Shown here one piece after another: positions 43,599 through 62,625 of a stretch of DNA of 64,000 nt. Made by a program: the position numbers and the translations under genes. Each line of letters starts with the position of its first letter. Position 1 is the stretch's first letter. The notes below the pieces were generated by a model. That model was given only the letters and a program-made list of their open reading frames with translations. It did no database searches and was not told the origin of the DNA. The stretch is from Halonotius pteroides (GTDB lineage Archaea > Halobacteriota > Halobacteria > Halobacteriales > Haloferacaceae). The DNA lies in NCBI RefSeq assembly GCF_003605635.1, contig NZ_QMDW01000003.1, positions 62,001 to 126,000 of the forward strand. Direction: 5' to 3'.

Positions 43599-45173
43599 TT
43601 ATCGAGTAAACTTCACGCCGGATTTTGTCAGCGAGTGCCTGATAAATCGATGTTCGACGACCTTCTCAACCTCACCCCGACGCGAACACACCGCAAGCTC
43701 CTTGAAATCGTACTCCTGTTGAACGCGTTTGCCGTACTTGTAGGCCTTTTTCGCACTTGGCGCGGAGGCGAATGCAAACCGATCAGTCGATGGGACAACG
43801 AGCCACGATGAGAGGAAATCGCTGTATTCGACGCGCAGGGATTCGAAGTGCTCGTTCCAGTAGATGTCGCCGACGCTGTTGGGGGTATCCCAGCGCAGCG
43901 TGCAGGGATGATGCTCGCTTGTCAGCTGTTTCGAGGCGGTTCGCATCGCCATCATCCGCCGGTCATGGTGGGAAAACACCGTTGCCTCGCTTGGATCCCG
44001 ACGGTACTCACGGACGAGATAGCCGTCGTCGCTGGCGATCACCTCAAGCGGCTGTCTCGATGGCGGCAGATCGATCGTCCCGATTGCCTTCGGGATCGGC
44101 CCGGTTCGCTCTTTGGGCTCACCCTCGGACTCACCGCCGGGCACCCTCGGCCCCGATGGCCCAGTTGGGCCGCCGATGCCGCCGGGCTGGCCCCCGCCGA
44201 CCGGCGACGCGCGATCGGTTGTCACGCCGGTATCGGCTGGCCGGCCGCCGTCGGCCGGCTGCACCGTTGGATCCGGGACATCAGCGATCGCGGCGGCGAG
44301 ATCACGGATCGTTCTGAACCGATCCTGTTTGTCCGGCGCCATCGCCCGTGCGATCGCCTGATCGAGTTCGGTCGGAAGCTCGGGGCGGTGCTCGCTTGGC
44401 GGGGTTGGCCCGTCGACGACCGCCTGCGAGATCTCGATTTGGCTTCCCTCGTAGGGGGGCTCGCCGACCGCCAGCGTGTAGATGATCGCCCCAACCTGGT
44501 AGATATCGGTCATCGAGTCAGGCTCGCCGAACTGGTCGGGGTGGAACTGTTCGGGCGCGCTGAAGGCGACCGAGACGCCGCTGTCGGTGCTGCCCTCTAA
44601 GGGCCGCGAGGAGGTGCCCCAGTCGGCGATCTTCGCGACATCCCACATACCAGCCTCGGTCGTCCGAAACAACACGTTCTCCGGCTTGAGGTCGAGATGC
44701 GAGATCCCCTCGTAGTGGGCGAGTTCGACCCCGCGGGCGATACAGTCGATGATCCACTGCAGTTCGGGGATCTCGTATGGCTCGCTTCGGCTCGCCAGCC
44801 GGTCGCCGAGTGAGCCGCCGTCCATATACTCCATGGCGATCCACGGCAACTCCTCGCCGGTGTCGACAACGCCGACAAGGTGTTCGTAGTCGGTGTAGAG
44901 CTGTTTTTCACGCTCTCGGGTATCGAGCTTCCGCCACGTCTGGGCCTCACGGATAAACTCCTTGGCCGCTGACGCCGGCAGCGTCCGCTCCTCGTGGGTC
45001 GGCTCCTTGACCGCGACGACCCGCGGCTCAGCGTGTGTCGTCACCTTCGCCTTGTAGACGGTGGCGTGGCCGCCGCCGCCAAGCCGGTCGACGATCTGGA
45101 GATCGTCATACGTCAACGACCGACGTGGTGGACTCGCCACGGACGCAACATCCGGGCGACGCGACGGTGGCAT
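43599..45173 (-). CDS. Ser/Thr protein kinase with novel C-terminal domain
   Basis: 524 residues. The kinase domain (about 24-300) has the glycine loop LGGGGHATVY (31-40), lysine K56 in VAVKEP, glutamate E76, catalytic HLDLKPEN (159-166), DWG in place of DFG (184-186) and APE (206-208). A linker (about 300-370) rich in P, G, S and T precedes a 151-residue C-terminal domain (374-524). That domain is shared with the 390-905 protein and otherwise unknown. All catalytic residues are present, so it is probably active. It lies 50 bases after the FHA-like gene, at the end of the AAA operon. Confidence 0.93.
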   Translation of the reverse strand: MPPSRRPDVASVASPPRRSLTYDDLQIVDRLGGGGHATVYKAKVTTHAEPRVVAVKEPTHEERTLPASAAKEFIREAQTWRKLDTREREKQLYTDYEHLVGVVDTGEELPWIAMEYMDGGSLGDRLASRSEPYEIPELQWIIDCIARGVELAHYEGISHLDLKPENVLFRTTEAGMWDVAKIADWGTSSRPLEGSTDSGVSVAFSAPEQFHPDQFGEPDSMTDIYQVGAIIYTLAVGEPPYEGSQIEISQAVVDGPTPPSEHRPELPTELDQAIARAMAPDKQDRFRTIRDLAAAIADVPDPTVQPADGGRPADTGVTTDRASPVGGGQPGGIGGPTGPSGPRVPGGESEGEPKERTGPIPKAIGTIDLPPSRQPLEVIASDDGYLVREYRRDPSEATVFSHHDRRMMAMRTASKQLTSEHHPCTLRWDTPNSVGDIYWNEHFESLRVEYSDFLSSWLVVPSTDRFAFASAPSAKKAYKYGKRVQQEYDFKELAVCSRRGEVEKVVEHRFIRHSLTKSGVKFTR

Positions 45174-45223
45174 ACCGATCTTTTGTGCGTGGATTCGTAT
45201 AGAGGTTAGCCCTCCGACAGCGG

Positions 45224-45931
45224 TCAGCTCGACGCTCGGGCGTAGAGCCCCTCGATCCGGTCGCTGAGGGCTGTCAGTTCCGCCTGCCACTCCTCGTCTA
45301 ACTCCTCTGTGTGGTGGAGGCCACCCGCCTTGCTCTCAAGCCGTCGCTCGATCTGTTCGACACGACGCTGTACCGCCTCGTGCTCCGAGCTATCCAACTG
45401 GTGAGAGTCAAGAAACGACCGGAGTTCGGCGACAACGCTCCGGCTTTCCGCAACTGAGTCGGTGCTGGCGGCTCGCAACGCGTTGGCCAGCGTTCTGGCG
45501 TGGGCGGCCGGGCTGACCCCACCTGCCTGCTCGGCTGCCGGACTGCGCTGAGAGCCCTCACGCTCGACAGTGGCCTGCAACGTGAGACTAATCCCGACTG
45601 TCAGTCGACAGTCATCGGTGATCGCGGCGGCGTCACCCGCTGTCAACGTGTGGGTTCGGAGATTGGTGCTGAGGCTGACCGGATTCGTGCTTCCGTGGTT
45701 GCGGACGCTGATCCCGCGTGAGATCGGCGAGAGTTCAACCGGCGGTCGACCGTCGGTTTTTCGGGAGACGGTTGCATCGCGGACAGCGAGGTCGACGCGT
45801 TGGCCCTCGGTTTCGGCCACGATCGTCTTACTGCCGTCGCCGAGCCGGTAGATCCCGACCCGTGAGTCGATCGGCACGCGGGTCGGGGTTGCGTCCTCAC
45901 TGGCCGGATCCGACAGCAGATATCGCTTCAT
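45224..45931 (-). CDS. FHA-like phosphopeptide-binding protein
   Basis: 235 residues. The first 118 show a beta-rich pattern with RDATVSRK (serine and arginine of the FHA core) and VRNHGSTNP, matching the N.S.N segment that reads phosphothreonine. The canonical GR is degenerate, so assignment rests on spacing. The C-terminal part (about 140-235) is helical and acidic, with several E/D-R repeats, perhaps a coiled coil. The start ATG at 45931 overlaps the AAA gene stop as ATGA, tying its translation to the ATPase. It lies before the kinase gene, so reading of that kinase's products is a natural inference. Confidence 0.75.
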   Translation of the reverse strand: MKRYLLSDPASEDATPTRVPIDSRVGIYRLGDGSKTIVAETEGQRVDLAVRDATVSRKTDGRPPVELSPISRGISVRNHGSTNPVSLSTNLRTHTLTAGDAAAITDDCRLTVGISLTLQATVEREGSQRSPAAEQAGGVSPAAHARTLANALRAASTDSVAESRSVVAELRSFLDSHQLDSSEHEAVQRRVEQIERRLESKAGGLHHTEELDEEWQAELTALSDRIEGLYARASS

Positions 45932-47085
45932 CCCCCATCCCACGCGTCCAAACTCGGGTCGGTTGCCTCGATGGCGGCTGTCAGGTGGGCCTGTGAGATC
46001 GGGACGACCGAGTCGGCATCCCGAGCTTCCTTCAGGGCGTTGCGTGCGGCCGTCGAGGCGATGATCTCGAGGTCGCTGGCAACATACCCATCGGTCTGTG
46101 CTTTGATCTCATCCCAATCGATCTCGTCGGTGACGACCGGCCGATCCCGGAGATGGATCCGCAGGATCGCTGCCCGCGCCGTCGCATCCGGCGGTGGCAC
46201 CTCGATGCGCTCGTCGAATCGCCGCCAGGCCGCGCCGTCGAGTTCCTCCGGCAGGTTTGTCGCGCCGACGACCACCACGTCTTCGCCTTTCGTCTCCGAC
46301 ATTTCGGTGAGAAACTGGGTGATCATCTGGCTCTCGCTCATGGTTTTGTTTGCCGTCCCGCCGCGCTCGGCGGCGATGGCATCGATCTCATCGAGAAAGA
46401 GCAGACAGGGCTGGTTGTCGCGGGCGATCTCGAACAGATCAGCCATGTTGTCGGCGGCCTCACCGACCAGCGAACTGGTGATATCCGAGGCTTGGGCGAT
46501 GACGACGTTGTACCCCAACTCGCCGGCCAGTGCCTCCGTAATATACGTTTTGCCGGTTCCCGGCGGGCCATATAGGAGAACGCCGTTGACGACGCCGAGA
46601 TCGTACTCCGCGTACAGTTCGGGTCGCTGCAGCGGGTCGATGACCTGATCTTTCAGCGTTTCTTTGAGGTCGGTCATCCCGCCAACGTCGCTGAAATCCA
46701 TCGCGGGGGGTTCCGCAAGAAACGTTTCGGGATCGGTGCCGGTGTCGTCGGCGTCGCCGGCCCGCCCGGGTGTGTCGCCATCGCCCGTGGCTGTCGTGGT
46801 CGTTGTCGACCCACCGGTACTGCCACCGCTTTCGTCGACAAGCGGCTTGTCGCTTTCGAGGCGTTCGGCGGCGGTGGCAAGATTGGCGGCCAGCTCCTTG
46901 CGCTCGGTGGCCAGCCGTGGGTTGGTTTCAAGCTCGGCGAGATCCTCAAGCACGCCGACACACTGCCGGTAGTAGCGGGCGGCCGCCGACGGCTGGCCCT
47001 CCTCGCGGGCGGCCTCGGCGTGGCTCCGGTAGCGCTCGTACTCGGATTCGAGATGGCTCTTCTGGGCACTCCGCTTCAGCGACAT
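45928..47085 (-). CDS. Vps4-like AAA ATPase with MIT-like N-terminal domain
   Basis: 385 residues. Residues 12-78 form a three-helix MIT-like domain (YERYRSHAEAAREEG, then AARYYRQCVGVLEDL and the ERKELAANLATAAERL helix). A threonine/glycine linker (80-118) follows. The AAA core has Walker A GPPGTGKT (173-180), a pore loop with SDITSSLVGE, Walker B LLFLDEID (228-235), sensor 1 GATN (274-277) and paired arginines R288-R289 as finger candidates. A C-terminal helical lid follows. This is the layout of the katanin/Vps4 clade that disassembles ESCRT-III filaments. Three bases separate it from the coiled-coil gene upstream. Confidence 0.88.
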   Translation of the reverse strand: MSLKRSAQKSHLESEYERYRSHAEAAREEGQPSAAARYYRQCVGVLEDLAELETNPRLATERKELAANLATAAERLESDKPLVDESGGSTGGSTTTTTATGDGDTPGRAGDADDTGTDPETFLAEPPAMDFSDVGGMTDLKETLKDQVIDPLQRPELYAEYDLGVVNGVLLYGPPGTGKTYITEALAGELGYNVVIAQASDITSSLVGEAADNMADLFEIARDNQPCLLFLDEIDAIAAERGGTANKTMSESQMITQFLTEMSETKGEDVVVVGATNLPEELDGAAWRRFDERIEVPPPDATARAAILRIHLRDRPVVTDEIDWDEIKAQTDGYVASDLEIIASTAARNALKEARDADSVVPISQAHLTAAIEATDPSLDAWDGG

Positions 47086-47088
47086 GGG

Positions 47089-47745
47089 TTAGAGGCTTGG
47101 CTCGCTGTCCTCGATGTCGACATCGAAGTCGTCCGGCTCGACCTCGACGGTGTCGTCGATATCGACCTGCTCGTGGTTGATGTCGCCGGCGGCCATCTCC
47201 TCCATGAGCTCTATCTCCTCGTCGGCCCCGGTTTCGAGATCCTGGTCGAGAATCTCCACGTCGAGGGCCTCCTGTACCTGCTTCATATCCTCGATCTCAA
47301 GGCCGAACTCCGCCATCTGATCCATAACCTCTCGCTGGAGTTCCTGGGCGTTGAGTTCGTCGTCAAACAGGTGATCGAGTTCGTAGGACTCACCGTCGCC
47401 GTTGTGCATCGCCAACACCTCACGCATTCCCTCGATGGAGATGACGGTGCCAAGCTTGATGCTGTTGGTCTTGTGTTTTTTCTTTTTGACCTCGTATTTT
47501 TTCTTCTCGAATTTGGCCTTCTGGGCGTACTGCTGGCGGCGGAACTCATCGGCCTCCGCGCCCTTCTGAAGCAGCTTCTGGTATCGTTCGGCGTGGTTAT
47601 CCATCTCGGATTCGATCTGTCTGAGGTGCTGTTCGAGTTTCGTCTTATCCTTCCGGAGCTCGGTTCGGCTGTAGGCACTCTCATCGAGCAGCGTCGCCGT
47701 GTCGGCGGTGCCGAACCGGTCTCTCACCCACGATCGAATGTCCAT
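47089..47745 (-). CDS. Coiled-coil, basic-to-acidic protein; ESCRT-III/Snf7-like candidate
   Basis: 218 residues. A short amphipathic start (MDIRSWVRDRFG) is followed by a long basic helical part (about 28-110, with RKDKTKLEQHLRQIESEMDN and KKKYEVKKKK). A strongly acidic helical second half (about 120-218, with the block DEEIELMEEMAAGD) completes it. A basic helical hairpin with an acidic C-terminal half is how CHMP/CdvB proteins are built. No membrane segment or enzymatic motif is seen. It is the first gene of the operon with the Vps4-like ATPase. Similarity to Snf7 is architectural; a chance coiled coil or PspA-like protein remains possible. The ATG at 47745 is supported by a TATA box 26 bases upstream. 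Confidence 0.65.
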   Translation of the reverse strand: MDIRSWVRDRFGTADTATLLDESAYSRTELRKDKTKLEQHLRQIESEMDNHAERYQKLLQKGAEADEFRRQQYAQKAKFEKKKYEVKKKKHKTNSIKLGTVISIEGMREVLAMHNGDGESYELDHLFDDELNAQELQREVMDQMAEFGLEIEDMKQVQEALDVEILDQDLETGADEEIELMEEMAAGDINHEQVDIDDTVEVEPDDFDVDIEDSEPSL

Positions 47746-47766
47746 TATCAACCTGTATGGATTCGA

Positions 47767-47775
47767 GGTATAATG
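47767..47775 (-). promoter_or_regulatory. TATA box of the ESCRT-like operon
   Basis: Minus-strand CATTATACC preceded by AAAAGG, centred 26 bases before the ATG at 47745, so the operon begins with a leaderless message. Confidence 0.55.
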
Positions 47776-48116
47776 CCTTTTGCCATGGGTAGGGCCAGCG
47801 CGTAGCGCGTGCTACCGTGTTGGGGGAGCAGTCGTGCCAGTGATGAGATGGACGACGCTTCCCAACGATCGACAGCATTCACACCGCCAACTCGTGGGCG
47901 CGGCCAACAGCTATTAGTGAGGAAACAATACCCTCAACAGACTATCAGGCGTCTCATGACCTCCCCATCGACTCTCCTGTTAGCTCAGGGACAGCCGTTG
48001 TCGCCGCCATCGACAGCGGCGCGCGCGCGGTCGTCGACACCACTGGTGGGGACGCCACAAGCTACCCTCCATTCGCCGCTGCCGGTCGTCTGGCCGGCCG
48101 CTCTCATCGATCTTGT
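47776..48116. other. Divergent intergenic region
   Basis: I see no supported gene. A 54-codon plus-strand frame (47956-48120) overlapping the next gene as ATGA has a serine/proline/arginine composition unlike real proteins here. The frame of the 48117 gene is open back to 47847 but offers no ATG, GTG or TTG before 48117. It holds the promoter for the 47745 operon and presumably that of the 48117 gene; a weak AACAATA lies near 47925. Confidence 0.5.
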
Positions 48117-49694
48117 ATGACCGACTGTCAAGACTGGCTCTCCGAGCTCACTCACGCCGCCGATCGCATCCTCAATGAGGATCTCGCTGCCCTCCAGCGA
48201 ATGTCGGAGCTTGCCAGACTCGACCGGTATGAATCGATCACACGCGACGAGGAGGCCCTCCGCTGGGAGTTTACCAAGGAGTGCAACGGGTTTCTGACCA
48301 GCAGCGAGGAGGATCGACTGCGCGGCGAACTCCGCCTTGCGCGGCTGCTGTTGGCGGCGAGCTTCTACGCTGAGGGCGAGGTGCCGGAGTCGATCGCCGA
48401 CGATTTCATTCAGCCTGAACTCCAAGCTGTCGTCGACTTCGATCGCTTCAAACGGTTCGATACGCTGGATGAATCCCAACTTGAAGCGCGTATCCAGCGA
48501 TTAGACGGTGAGGTGACCGAGTTACTGGAGACGTACGCCGACTCGACGGTCGCCAACATCGACACCCTGCTGGAAAACCCCGATGTCCAACAGGACGTGA
48601 TCGACCGCCTGCTCGACCGGTATGAAGACCGCCGCGCGCGCGTTCGTCAGGCGATCTTTCTCTATGCTGAGACCCACGGCCTCGAAACCCTTGGCGGTGA
48701 TCTCGCATTCGACGACATAGAGAACCCCGCCGGTGTTGACGGCGGTCGCCCGACCGGTGCTGCCGACGGGGCAGGGTCAGCTGCCGCCGCTGCCGACGCC
48801 AGTGATCGATCAGCCGACGACGCCGGGCGATCGCCGACTGCCACCCGCCCCACGACTACAACCGCCGACAGTGACGCCGTCACCGCCGCGACCGCCCGCC
48901 TGTTCGAGTTGGATTATCTTGGCCGCTTCGAGACCTCGATGCAGGAGATAGACGAGATCCACCTGCCCGATGAGGCGTTTTCCGTTCCTGACGGCTACTG
49001 GGAGGGTCGTTGTAGCCGCCGAAACGAACGCGATCGTATGGCTGCCCTTCTCGAAACGAACGGCGACGACGTGGCGGCCCATCCGGTCAACCCGACCGCG
49101 CGCTATGCGCTCACCGACTCGAAGTATTTCGGCCTCACCAGCGAGACGCGGATGGTCATCGAGGCGACGGTCTACTCTCACCTCACCCAGCACGCCAGCG
49201 AGGGCGTCGATGCGACCCCGGCTGGTGTCGATGACCTCGTTGCCATCGTGGGTGAGGCGGTCGACGAAGCGGCTGATCGCACAGCCCCCTCGCTGCTCGG
49301 GATCGCCTCCCCAACCGGCTGGACGGATCGCGTCGTCGGCTACGTCCAAGACGACGAGCTTAGCCGGACACATTATGGCCCACACGTGAGCGTCTGTCTG
49401 ATCGACCTCCAGCGCGGCGACCTCATCTACGATACGACCGATTCTGTCGTCGCCGAAAACGCCGACCTCTTTGAGCGCGCGGTACAGGCGGACGCCGTCG
49501 CCAACTGCGTTGACACCCTCCGGAGCCGGTATCTGGAGGGGCTTGGTCGAGAAACGCTGCTGCTTACTGCTGCCACCGAGGAAACGGGCTACGACCGTCA
49601 CGTCGTTCGACAGGCGTTCTCACGGTTGGAAGCCGACGATGCGGGCGAAGTGTTCTCGATCAACGACGACGGCGTCGCCTTTGAGTTCCGATAG
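48117..49694 (+). CDS. Large unknown protein divergent from the ESCRT-like operon
   Basis: 525 residues. The N-terminal 200 residues are almost wholly helical and acidic (DWLSELTHAADRILNEDL; EARIQRLDGEVTELLETY). A disordered alanine/threonine/aspartate linker (about 205-255) follows. A folded C-terminal part (about 260-525) contains FGLTSETRMVIEATVYSHL and HYGPHVSVCLIDLQRGDLIYD. It ends in a winged-helix-like unit with GYDRHVVRQAFSRLEADDAG. No family is recognised. Head-to-head placement with the AAA/kinase operon suggests a functional link or shared control. Confidence 0.7.
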   Translation: MTDCQDWLSELTHAADRILNEDLAALQRMSELARLDRYESITRDEEALRWEFTKECNGFLTSSEEDRLRGELRLARLLLAASFYAEGEVPESIADDFIQPELQAVVDFDRFKRFDTLDESQLEARIQRLDGEVTELLETYADSTVANIDTLLENPDVQQDVIDRLLDRYEDRRARVRQAIFLYAETHGLETLGGDLAFDDIENPAGVDGGRPTGAADGAGSAAAAADASDRSADDAGRSPTATRPTTTTADSDAVTAATARLFELDYLGRFETSMQEIDEIHLPDEAFSVPDGYWEGRCSRRNERDRMAALLETNGDDVAAHPVNPTARYALTDSKYFGLTSETRMVIEATVYSHLTQHASEGVDATPAGVDDLVAIVGEAVDEAADRTAPSLLGIASPTGWTDRVVGYVQDDELSRTHYGPHVSVCLIDLQRGDLIYDTTDSVVAENADLFERAVQADAVANCVDTLRSRYLEGLGRETLLLTAATEETGYDRHVVRQAFSRLEADDAGEVFSINDDGVAFEFR

Positions 49695-61918: not shown

Positions 61919-62625
61919 ACGTCGCCATCGTCACGGTCGGGGATGAACTGCTAGCCGGCGAGACCGTCGATACGAACAGCACGTGGTTGGCCTCGGAGTT
62001 GACCGATCGCGGCTGTACTGTCACCCGCATCACGACCGTTCCCGATCAGATCGAGGTGATCGCCGCCGTTGTCAACGAGTATCGGGCTGACGACGACGCG
62101 GTCATCGTTACCGGTGGGCTAGGGCCTACCCACGACGATCGCACGATGGAAGCGGTTGCTGCGGCGGTTGGCCGTGATCTCGAACACCATCCCGAGGCGG
62201 AAGCCTGGCTCACCACCGAGGGCGGATACAGTGCCGCCGAACTCGACGCGGGCACCACTGACCTGCCGGCTGGCGCGCGAATGGTACCGAACGAAGCCGG
62301 TGTCGCTCCCGGTGCTGTCATCGAGTCAATCTACGTACTCCCAGGGGTGCCCACAGAGATGAAAACCATGTTTGGGCATGTTGCTGCGGAGTTCAGCGGT
62401 GAGCCGATCCACACCGAGGTGGTCGTCGCCGACGAACCCGAAAGCGCGCTGATCGACCGTCTTGAGACGGCACAACAGCGGTTCGCTGTCGATGTCGGCA
62501 GCTATCCGGGCGAGTACGTTCGCGTCAAGTTCCGCGGCGGCGACCCCGAGGCTGTCGCGGCGGCGACCGACTGGTTTCGCCAGCAGGTAACCGTTGGCAA
62601 CATCGATGACAACGACGACTCATAG
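61915..62625 (+). CDS. CinA N-terminal (MoaB/Mog-like) family protein
   Basis: 236 residues. A VGDELLAGETVDTNSTWLA block starts the protein, then TGGLGPTHDDRTMEAVAAAV, the molybdopterin-binding-like signature of the competence/damage-inducible CinA family. PGVPTEMKTMF closes the core. The C-terminal deamidase domain of bacterial CinA is absent. The family includes pyrophosphatases acting on nicotinamide or ADP-ribose compounds. It ends the tfeA operon. Confidence 0.88.
   Translation: MNVAIVTVGDELLAGETVDTNSTWLASELTDRGCTVTRITTVPDQIEVIAAVVNEYRADDDAVIVTGGLGPTHDDRTMEAVAAAVGRDLEHHPEAEAWLTTEGGYSAAELDAGTTDLPAGARMVPNEAGVAPGAVIESIYVLPGVPTEMKTMFGHVAAEFSGEPIHTEVVVADEPESALIDRLETAQQRFAVDVGSYPGEYVRVKFRGGDPEAVAAATDWFRQQVTVGNIDDNDDS

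Follow-up and report, generated by a model that had tools for sequence, protein, structure and literature searches.

The haloarchaeon Halonotius pteroides carries a locus which is probably a compact archaeal form of the endosomal sorting complex required for transport (ESCRT). The locus lies in a stretch of 64,000 nucleotides (positions 62,001 to 126,000 of the forward strand of contig NZ_QMDW01000003.1, hereafter the window) and all positions below are counted from the first letter of this window. Four genes encode a coiled-coil protein, an AAA ATPase, a protein with an FHA-type fold and a Ser/Thr kinase, and a divergent fifth gene encodes a 525-amino-acid protein of a winged-helix family. 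Its type is that of the Halo_FHA clade, which was defined in 2024 by the association of Vps4, ESCRT-III and an FHA family (arCOG13166) in Halobacteriales (Makarova et al., mBio, PMC10936438). The likeliest output of the system is the budding or sorting of membrane or vesicle cargo, or envelope maintenance. The homology of the core parts and their conserved linkage were computed; from the anatomy of the locus we infer the mechanism, a membrane remodelling that would be controlled by phosphorylation.

Components of the locus

A preliminary description of the window had proposed a coiled-coil protein related to ESCRT-III, a Vps4-type AAA ATPase with an MIT-like N-terminus, an FHA-like reader and a complete protein kinase. 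Each of these four assignments gains support from the comparisons presented in this section. Of the three outcomes named there as contrary to the proposal, two (an ATPase grouping with proteasomal or Cdc48-type proteins, and a gene order peculiar to this genome) clearly do not occur; the third, a coiled-coil protein structurally unlike ESCRT-III, is contradicted by the sequence profiles and not by a structure search.

The ATPase comprises an MIT-type N-terminal domain (about residues 1-80), a Thr/Gly-rich linker and an AAA core. Within the core, the motifs Walker A (173) and Walker B (229) are intact, and so are sensor 1 (275) and the arginine finger RRF (288). Taken alone, the Pfam MIT match to the N-terminus is weak (E 0.033). 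In profile comparisons with hhalign, the same region aligns to the N-termini of main-clade Vps4 proteins at 92% (E 5e-7) and to the MIT region of Methanosarcina-type Vps4 at 76%, with controls below 1%. Phylogenetic trees gather the Halo_FHA ATPases in one clade (support 96/90 to 98/93). Grouping with the proteasomal PAN or the Cdc48 of the same genome is rejected by the approximately unbiased (AU) test (p 0.0045 and p 0.0040, respectively). A strict Vps4-only clade is rejected as well (AU p 6e-4) because a membrane-anchored haloarchaeal AAA protein is sister to the Halo_FHA ATPases. There is no clean Vps4 clade and membership in Vps4 therefore depends on the MIT domain and on the gene neighbourhood. 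Published criteria for Vps4 are an MIT domain or ESCRT neighbours (PMC10936438), and the Halonotius ATPase presents both an MIT-type N-terminus and adjoining ESCRT genes. Sequence evidence thus supports a Vps4-like ATPase of the Halo_FHA type rather than a canonical Vps4. The sister protein (L114, encoded in the same genome at C93:64080) contains a single AAA domain and a hydrophobic, probably membrane-anchored N-terminus; it is the closest relative of the operon ATPase in this genome.

The coiled-coil protein shows a marked charge asymmetry. Residues 25-100, which cover the hairpin, are basic (22 K/R vs 12 D/E), the part after the hairpin is very acidic (2 K/R vs 40 D/E), and this basic-then-acidic pattern is preserved among close relatives. 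AlphaFold2 (AF2) predicts helices at residues 27-64, 67-114, 135-146, 151-161 and 175-185. The first two form a long α1-α2 hairpin which is followed by short helices and the acidic tail, an ESCRT-III-like topology; the hairpin is mostly confident and much of the remainder is low in confidence. The short conserved helix 175-185 within the acidic tail is predicted to be positioned like an MIT-interacting motif.

Profiles were needed for the coiled-coil and FHA proteins because single-sequence searches of both against Pfam, NCBIfam and the PDB returned chance-level matches only. By hhalign, the coiled-coil protein is linked to an alignment of ESCRT-III-like proteins from methanogens (161 columns, E 5.5e-10; controls: reversed profile 0.43, unrelated coiled coil 0.39), and its profile matches the first ESCRT-III of a Thermococcus plasmid locus (E 6.6e-13). 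The best PDB match of the methanogen alignment is CdvB (9s9j, E 0.16), and the last sequence link from that family to a solved ESCRT-III is weak. Direct hhalign comparison with the Snf7-matching proteins of Methanosarcina type reaches 7% only, and the coiled-coil, FHA and winged-helix alignments, used as profiles against PDB sequences, returned nothing convincing. Considered together with the clean negative controls, the profile links support the assignment of the coiled-coil protein as a putative diverged ESCRT-III of the Snf7/CdvB superfamily. In two relatives, 402-amino-acid proteins (L046, 8426-9631; L047, 8376-9581) carry an ESCRT-III-like region in their first ~200 residues fused to an unknown C-terminal domain, and a Vps4-like gene was not seen near them.

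For the third protein, the AF2 model (mean predicted local distance difference test score, pLDDT, of 81) is an FHA β-sandwich. The top 20 Foldseek matches of this model are all FHA domains or FHA proteins, the best one at E 1.9e-4 and probability 1.0. Among 10 aligned sequences, R33, S60, R61 and N87 are invariant (numbered after alignment A5, which begins 4 residues upstream of the protein start). Placed by motif and not by superposition, the R, the S-R pair and the N would occupy the positions expected for phosphothreonine binding. The C-terminus is modelled as a four-helix domain. Foldseek aligns these helices to 2j9w_A, which we take to be the C-terminal domain (CTD) of VPS28 and whose PDB title refers to the ESCRT-I-II link. 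This match has a probability of 0.98, a template modelling (TM) score of 0.62 and a root-mean-square deviation of 3.3, yet it ranks 44th (E 0.21) near a designed bundle, and no sequence support for the likeness was found. We therefore describe a VPS28-like bundle on the FHA protein as tentative. The FHA protein is split in three relatives (L041-L043), where the FHA domain and the C-terminal helical domain are encoded by separate genes, the latter domain being joined to a different N-terminus. In these loci a gene for a zinc-ribbon SPFH/band-7 protein adjoins the split FHA genes, and in L041 and L042 the FHA-domain gene also carries a zinc ribbon.

The kinase domain is well recognised (Pfam Pkinase, E 2.2e-28) and its catalytic motifs VAVK, HLDLKPEN, DWG and APE are intact. 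A low-complexity linker leads to a C-terminal domain without Pfam match. It is the sole Hanks-type kinase above the cut-off in the genome. In one relative (L016, 10528-13845), the kinase domain is preceded by hydrophobic segments and by helical repeats weakly resembling TPRs, and this kinase may be anchored in the membrane.

The product of the fifth gene is homologous to a Thermococcales counterpart (E 1.7e-33; hhalign 99.3%, reversed control 0.4%), and its family adjoins ESCRT-III and Vps4 genes in haloarchaea, methanogens and Thermococcus. The protein has no PDB match by sequence. arCOG09748 proteins are reported to have a C-terminal, ESCRT-II-like winged-helix fold (PMC10936438). The Halonotius protein is thus a putative member of this ESCRT-II-like family, for which the homology is measured and the fold is carried over from arCOG09748. 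The labels arCOG09748 and arCOG08177 are used here by homology to Thermococcus proteins and not from arCOG profiles.

Conservation and relation to known systems

The same genes stand in the same order in all 5 Halonotius genomes examined and in about 10 other haloarchaeal genera, so the neighbourhood is not unique to this genome, an outcome that the preliminary description had treated as favourable. Each of the five genes is under purifying selection, with ratios of non-synonymous to synonymous substitution rates (dN/dS) of 0.04-0.32. Since gene set and order recur across Halonotius and other genera under such constraint, the locus is not a chance assembly. The nearest named relatives of the host are H. 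aquaticus, H. roseus and H. terrestris. With the coiled-coil profile, the locus was found in 15 of the 394 genomes sampled from the order (12 of 95 genera); the weakest matches among these 15 genomes come from diverged versions in which no FHA gene is recognised. The distribution is patchy, yet the locus is clearly inherited as a unit.

Additional genes accompany the system in relatives. A gene of ~175 amino acids, arCOG08177-like, precedes the winged-helix gene in 10 relatives' loci by BLAST and in two further loci (L017, L073) by profile; in most relatives it occupies the region that is empty (371 bases) in Halonotius. No such gene was found in the Halonotius locus or, in a genome search without positive control, elsewhere in its genome. 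A PP2C phosphatase is encoded in 7 relatives' loci, mostly directly behind the FHA gene, and two members tested against Pfam PP2C_2 score 59.9 and 68.7 bits. Another, diverged copy of the locus (L017) is present in H. aquaticus beside the main one; it contains both the PP2C and the arCOG08177-like genes missing from the main Halonotius copy.

The core gene set extends beyond haloarchaea to methanogen classes. Methanogen-type loci retrieved with the winged-helix profile hold coiled-coil homologues beside canonical Vps4 and kinases. A plasmid of Thermococcus peptonophilus carries, in this order, a 175-amino-acid gene, a winged-helix protein, two ESCRT-III proteins, a kinase, Vps4 and PP2C. E-values of the matches are 4.5e-36 for the 175-amino-acid gene, 3e-30 for the kinase, 4.6e-55 for the AAA protein and 2.4e-58 for PP2C, and kinase and PP2C are annotated as such. 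When a plasmid origin was looked for, the ESCRT-III protein remained without match and only distant relatives of the winged-helix protein were retrieved. Outside the haloarchaeal order, one locus (L072, 5912-7722) holds a Halo_FHA-type ESCRT-III and an AAA protein split over two open reading frames (ORFs); no FHA gene was detected in it and a second Vps4-like AAA lies nearby.

These comparisons place the locus among published systems. As in the definition of the Halo_FHA clade, an FHA family with a helical C-terminal domain occurs in Halobacteriales together with Vps4 and ESCRT-III, with the kinase and the winged-helix protein nearby. Halonotius differs by the lack of PP2C and of the arCOG08177-like gene, and the relatives L041-L043 by their split FHA and C-terminal parts. 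The reduced form still fits the clade because arCOG09748, arCOG08177, the kinase and the phosphatase are reported in some loci only (PMC10936438). The locus is therefore not new in kind, and the novelty implied when the preliminary description remarked that haloarchaea are not textbook ESCRT organisms does not hold, the system having been published in 2024. New here are the reduced Halonotius form, the second H. aquaticus copy, the patchy distribution and, tentatively, the VPS28-like bundle; the fifth gene is a useful addition to the preliminary description. None of the papers searched names Halonotius together with ESCRT.

The ‘Main’ euryarchaeal clade of Thermococcales and methanogens, with whose organisation the T. 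peptonophilus order agrees (PMC10936438), likewise unites the arCOG08177-like, winged-helix, ESCRT-III, kinase, Vps4 and PP2C genes in one locus. In contrast to Halonotius, no FHA protein is recognised in the Thermococcus locus, its Vps4 retains Vps4_C, 2 or 3 ESCRT-III-like paralogues occur and the winged-helix gene is co-directional instead of divergent. The Cdv system of TACK archaea (CdvA, CdvB, CdvC) shares ESCRT-III and a Vps4-type ATPase, and the NCBIfam CdvC model aligns to residues 10-378 of the Halonotius ATPase at 171 bits, against a cut-off of 650. However, no CdvA gene is recognised, kinase and FHA protein are added and the host has FtsZ-family genes. The eukaryotic and Asgard ubiquitin-ESCRT pathways are ordered by the same logic, from a tag reader through an ESCRT-II-like winged helix to ESCRT-III and then Vps4. 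No ubiquitin parts were seen in the Halonotius locus, whose tag reader would instead be a phosphothreonine-type FHA domain.

Proposed mechanism and competing explanations

In the mechanism we propose, the kinase would mark cargo, the machinery itself or both on threonine, and the FHA protein would read this phosphothreonine mark. Through its helical C-terminal domain, the FHA protein may then join the phosphoprotein with the membrane-located winged-helix protein, and the resulting assembly would nucleate ESCRT-III polymerization. The MIT domain of the Vps4-like ATPase would engage the acidic ESCRT-III tail, and threading of the ESCRT-III subunits through the AAA ring would remodel or sever the membrane. 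Phosphorylated proteins have previously been suggested as cargo (Makarova et al. 2024, PMC10936438), and the PP2C genes in seven relatives' loci support a phospho-switch.

A more elaborate version would be a phospho-coded ESCRT. The FHA protein would be the counterpart of ESCRT-0/I and read phosphothreonine in place of ubiquitin, its VPS28-CTD-like bundle would dock on the winged-helix protein, and the sorting signal would be written by the kinase and, in relatives, erased by PP2C. We regard this version as speculative and rather doubtful. Its phosphorylated cargo is part of the published proposal (PMC10936438); the VPS28-like bridge would be new, if true.

Several observations weigh against an ESCRT system that acts in sorting or envelope maintenance. 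In the literature, no experiment on the function of the system was found, and the Halonotius proteins lack a demonstrated transmembrane anchor or lipid-binding part. The Pfam Snf7 model does not match the coiled-coil protein; this says little because Snf7 barely detects even Sulfolobus, which among control genomes is the only one matched, below the cut-off. The structural match to ESCRT-III anticipated for this protein is seen in the AF2 topology and does not reach significance in Foldseek against the PDB. Vipp1, Snf7, Shrub and CHMP1B come up at E 3.7-6.6 only, among BAR and Smac hairpins; the generic nature of hairpins of this kind is the probable cause. Pfam Vps4_C has no match in the ATPase, which is filed as Vps4-like for this reason, and exceeds the Pfam cut-off in main-clade relatives (two methanogen-type loci and the Thermococcus plasmid Vps4). 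Pfam FHA does not match the FHA protein, and the canonical His of the SxxH motif is missing from its FHA domain. The winged-helix fold of the 525-amino-acid protein is predicted from its family. Finally, PP2C is absent from the Halonotius locus and was not found in its own genome.

Vesicle or cargo sorting is our first choice, and its main rival is a role in division or cell shape. The ESCRT parts would then be real and the module, controlled by the kinase, would serve as an FtsZ/CetZ accessory, for example in final abscission or in remodelling of the septum. CdvB and CdvC divide TACK archaea, the C-terminal domain of the FHA protein has a reported limited similarity to CdvA (PMC10936438), and six genes of the tubulin/FtsZ superfamily (FtsZ/CetZ family) coexist in the genome. 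We consider this role unlikely. A locus found in so few of the sampled genomes is not needed for division, and no division gene is recognised within it. Since FtsZ/CetZ-family genes are present and the system is patchy, its output is probably not cell division; with six such genes in the host and most haloarchaea lacking the locus, a role beside FtsZ, and not instead of it, is likely.

Still less probable is a phospho-regulated AAA unfoldase or chaperone of ESCRT-like ancestry, which would disassemble coiled-coil complexes away from membranes, for example in stress or polymer turnover. The loss of Vps4_C, the membrane-anchored AAA of unknown role as closest relative in the genome and an ESCRT-III fold without Foldseek confirmation would suit such a module. 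However, ESCRT-III- and ESCRT-II-like families are conserved together with these genes in lineages that range from methanogens to Thermococcus, and a zinc-ribbon SPFH/band-7 protein, of a membrane-associated family, is encoded in three relatives' loci. A defence or inter-element conflict system is very improbable: patchiness, relatives of the locus borne on plasmids, the second H. aquaticus copy and the frequency of kinase and AAA parts in defence islands would agree with it, but the genes flanking the Halonotius locus (serine acetyltransferase-like and others) are ordinary cellular genes and conserved, and the NCBIfam models IteA, MAD6 and PglW match the generic AAA or kinase domain only, far below cut-off, no dedicated defence-gene library search having been run.

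Haloarchaea are genetically tractable and divide by means of FtsZ, so cells should survive the deletion of an accessory ESCRT. In Halonotius the system is of unusual simplicity: a single ESCRT-III, a single Vps4-like ATPase and a single reader are combined with the only clear Hanks-type kinase of the genome, and no PP2C is detectable. This simplicity makes a non-division ESCRT role and phosphorylation switching directly testable. The locus also bears on the origin of the tag-reader-remodeller logic in eukaryotic ESCRT.

Gene layout

The coordinates of the five genes and of the region between the two transcription directions are collected in Table 1.

Table 1. Features of the ESCRT-like locus in the window (AF2, AlphaFold2; ORF, open reading frame; aa, amino acids)
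Feature	Position	Strand	Size and remarks	Evidence
ESCRT-III-like protein gene	47745-47089	-	218 aa, ATG start	ORF, AF2, profile, charge pattern
Vps4-like AAA ATPase gene	47085-45928	-	385 aa	ORF, Pfam, hhalign, trees
FHA-fold protein gene	45931-45224	-	235 aa, counted from the ATG overlapping the AAA stop	AF2, Foldseek, alignment
Hanks-type Ser/Thr kinase gene	45173-43599	-	524 aa	Pfam, motifs
Winged-helix family protein gene (divergent, fifth)	48117-49694	+	525 aa, arCOG09748-type	Homology to Thermococcales member, conserved neighbourhood
Divergent intergenic region	47746-48116		371 bases, presumably holds the promoters for both directions

Along the operon, from the coiled-coil gene to the ATPase, FHA and kinase genes, the spacing is a 3-base gap, a 4-base overlap and 50 bases; the overlap is the ATGA shared by the ATPase stop and the start of the FHA gene. 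The four genes on one strand, their coordinates and these gaps had been described exactly. That gene set was correct as far as it went and incomplete at one end, where the divergent fifth gene had been omitted. In H. roseus (L021), an extra ORF of ~411 amino acids between 7593 and 9420 separates the winged-helix and ESCRT-III genes.

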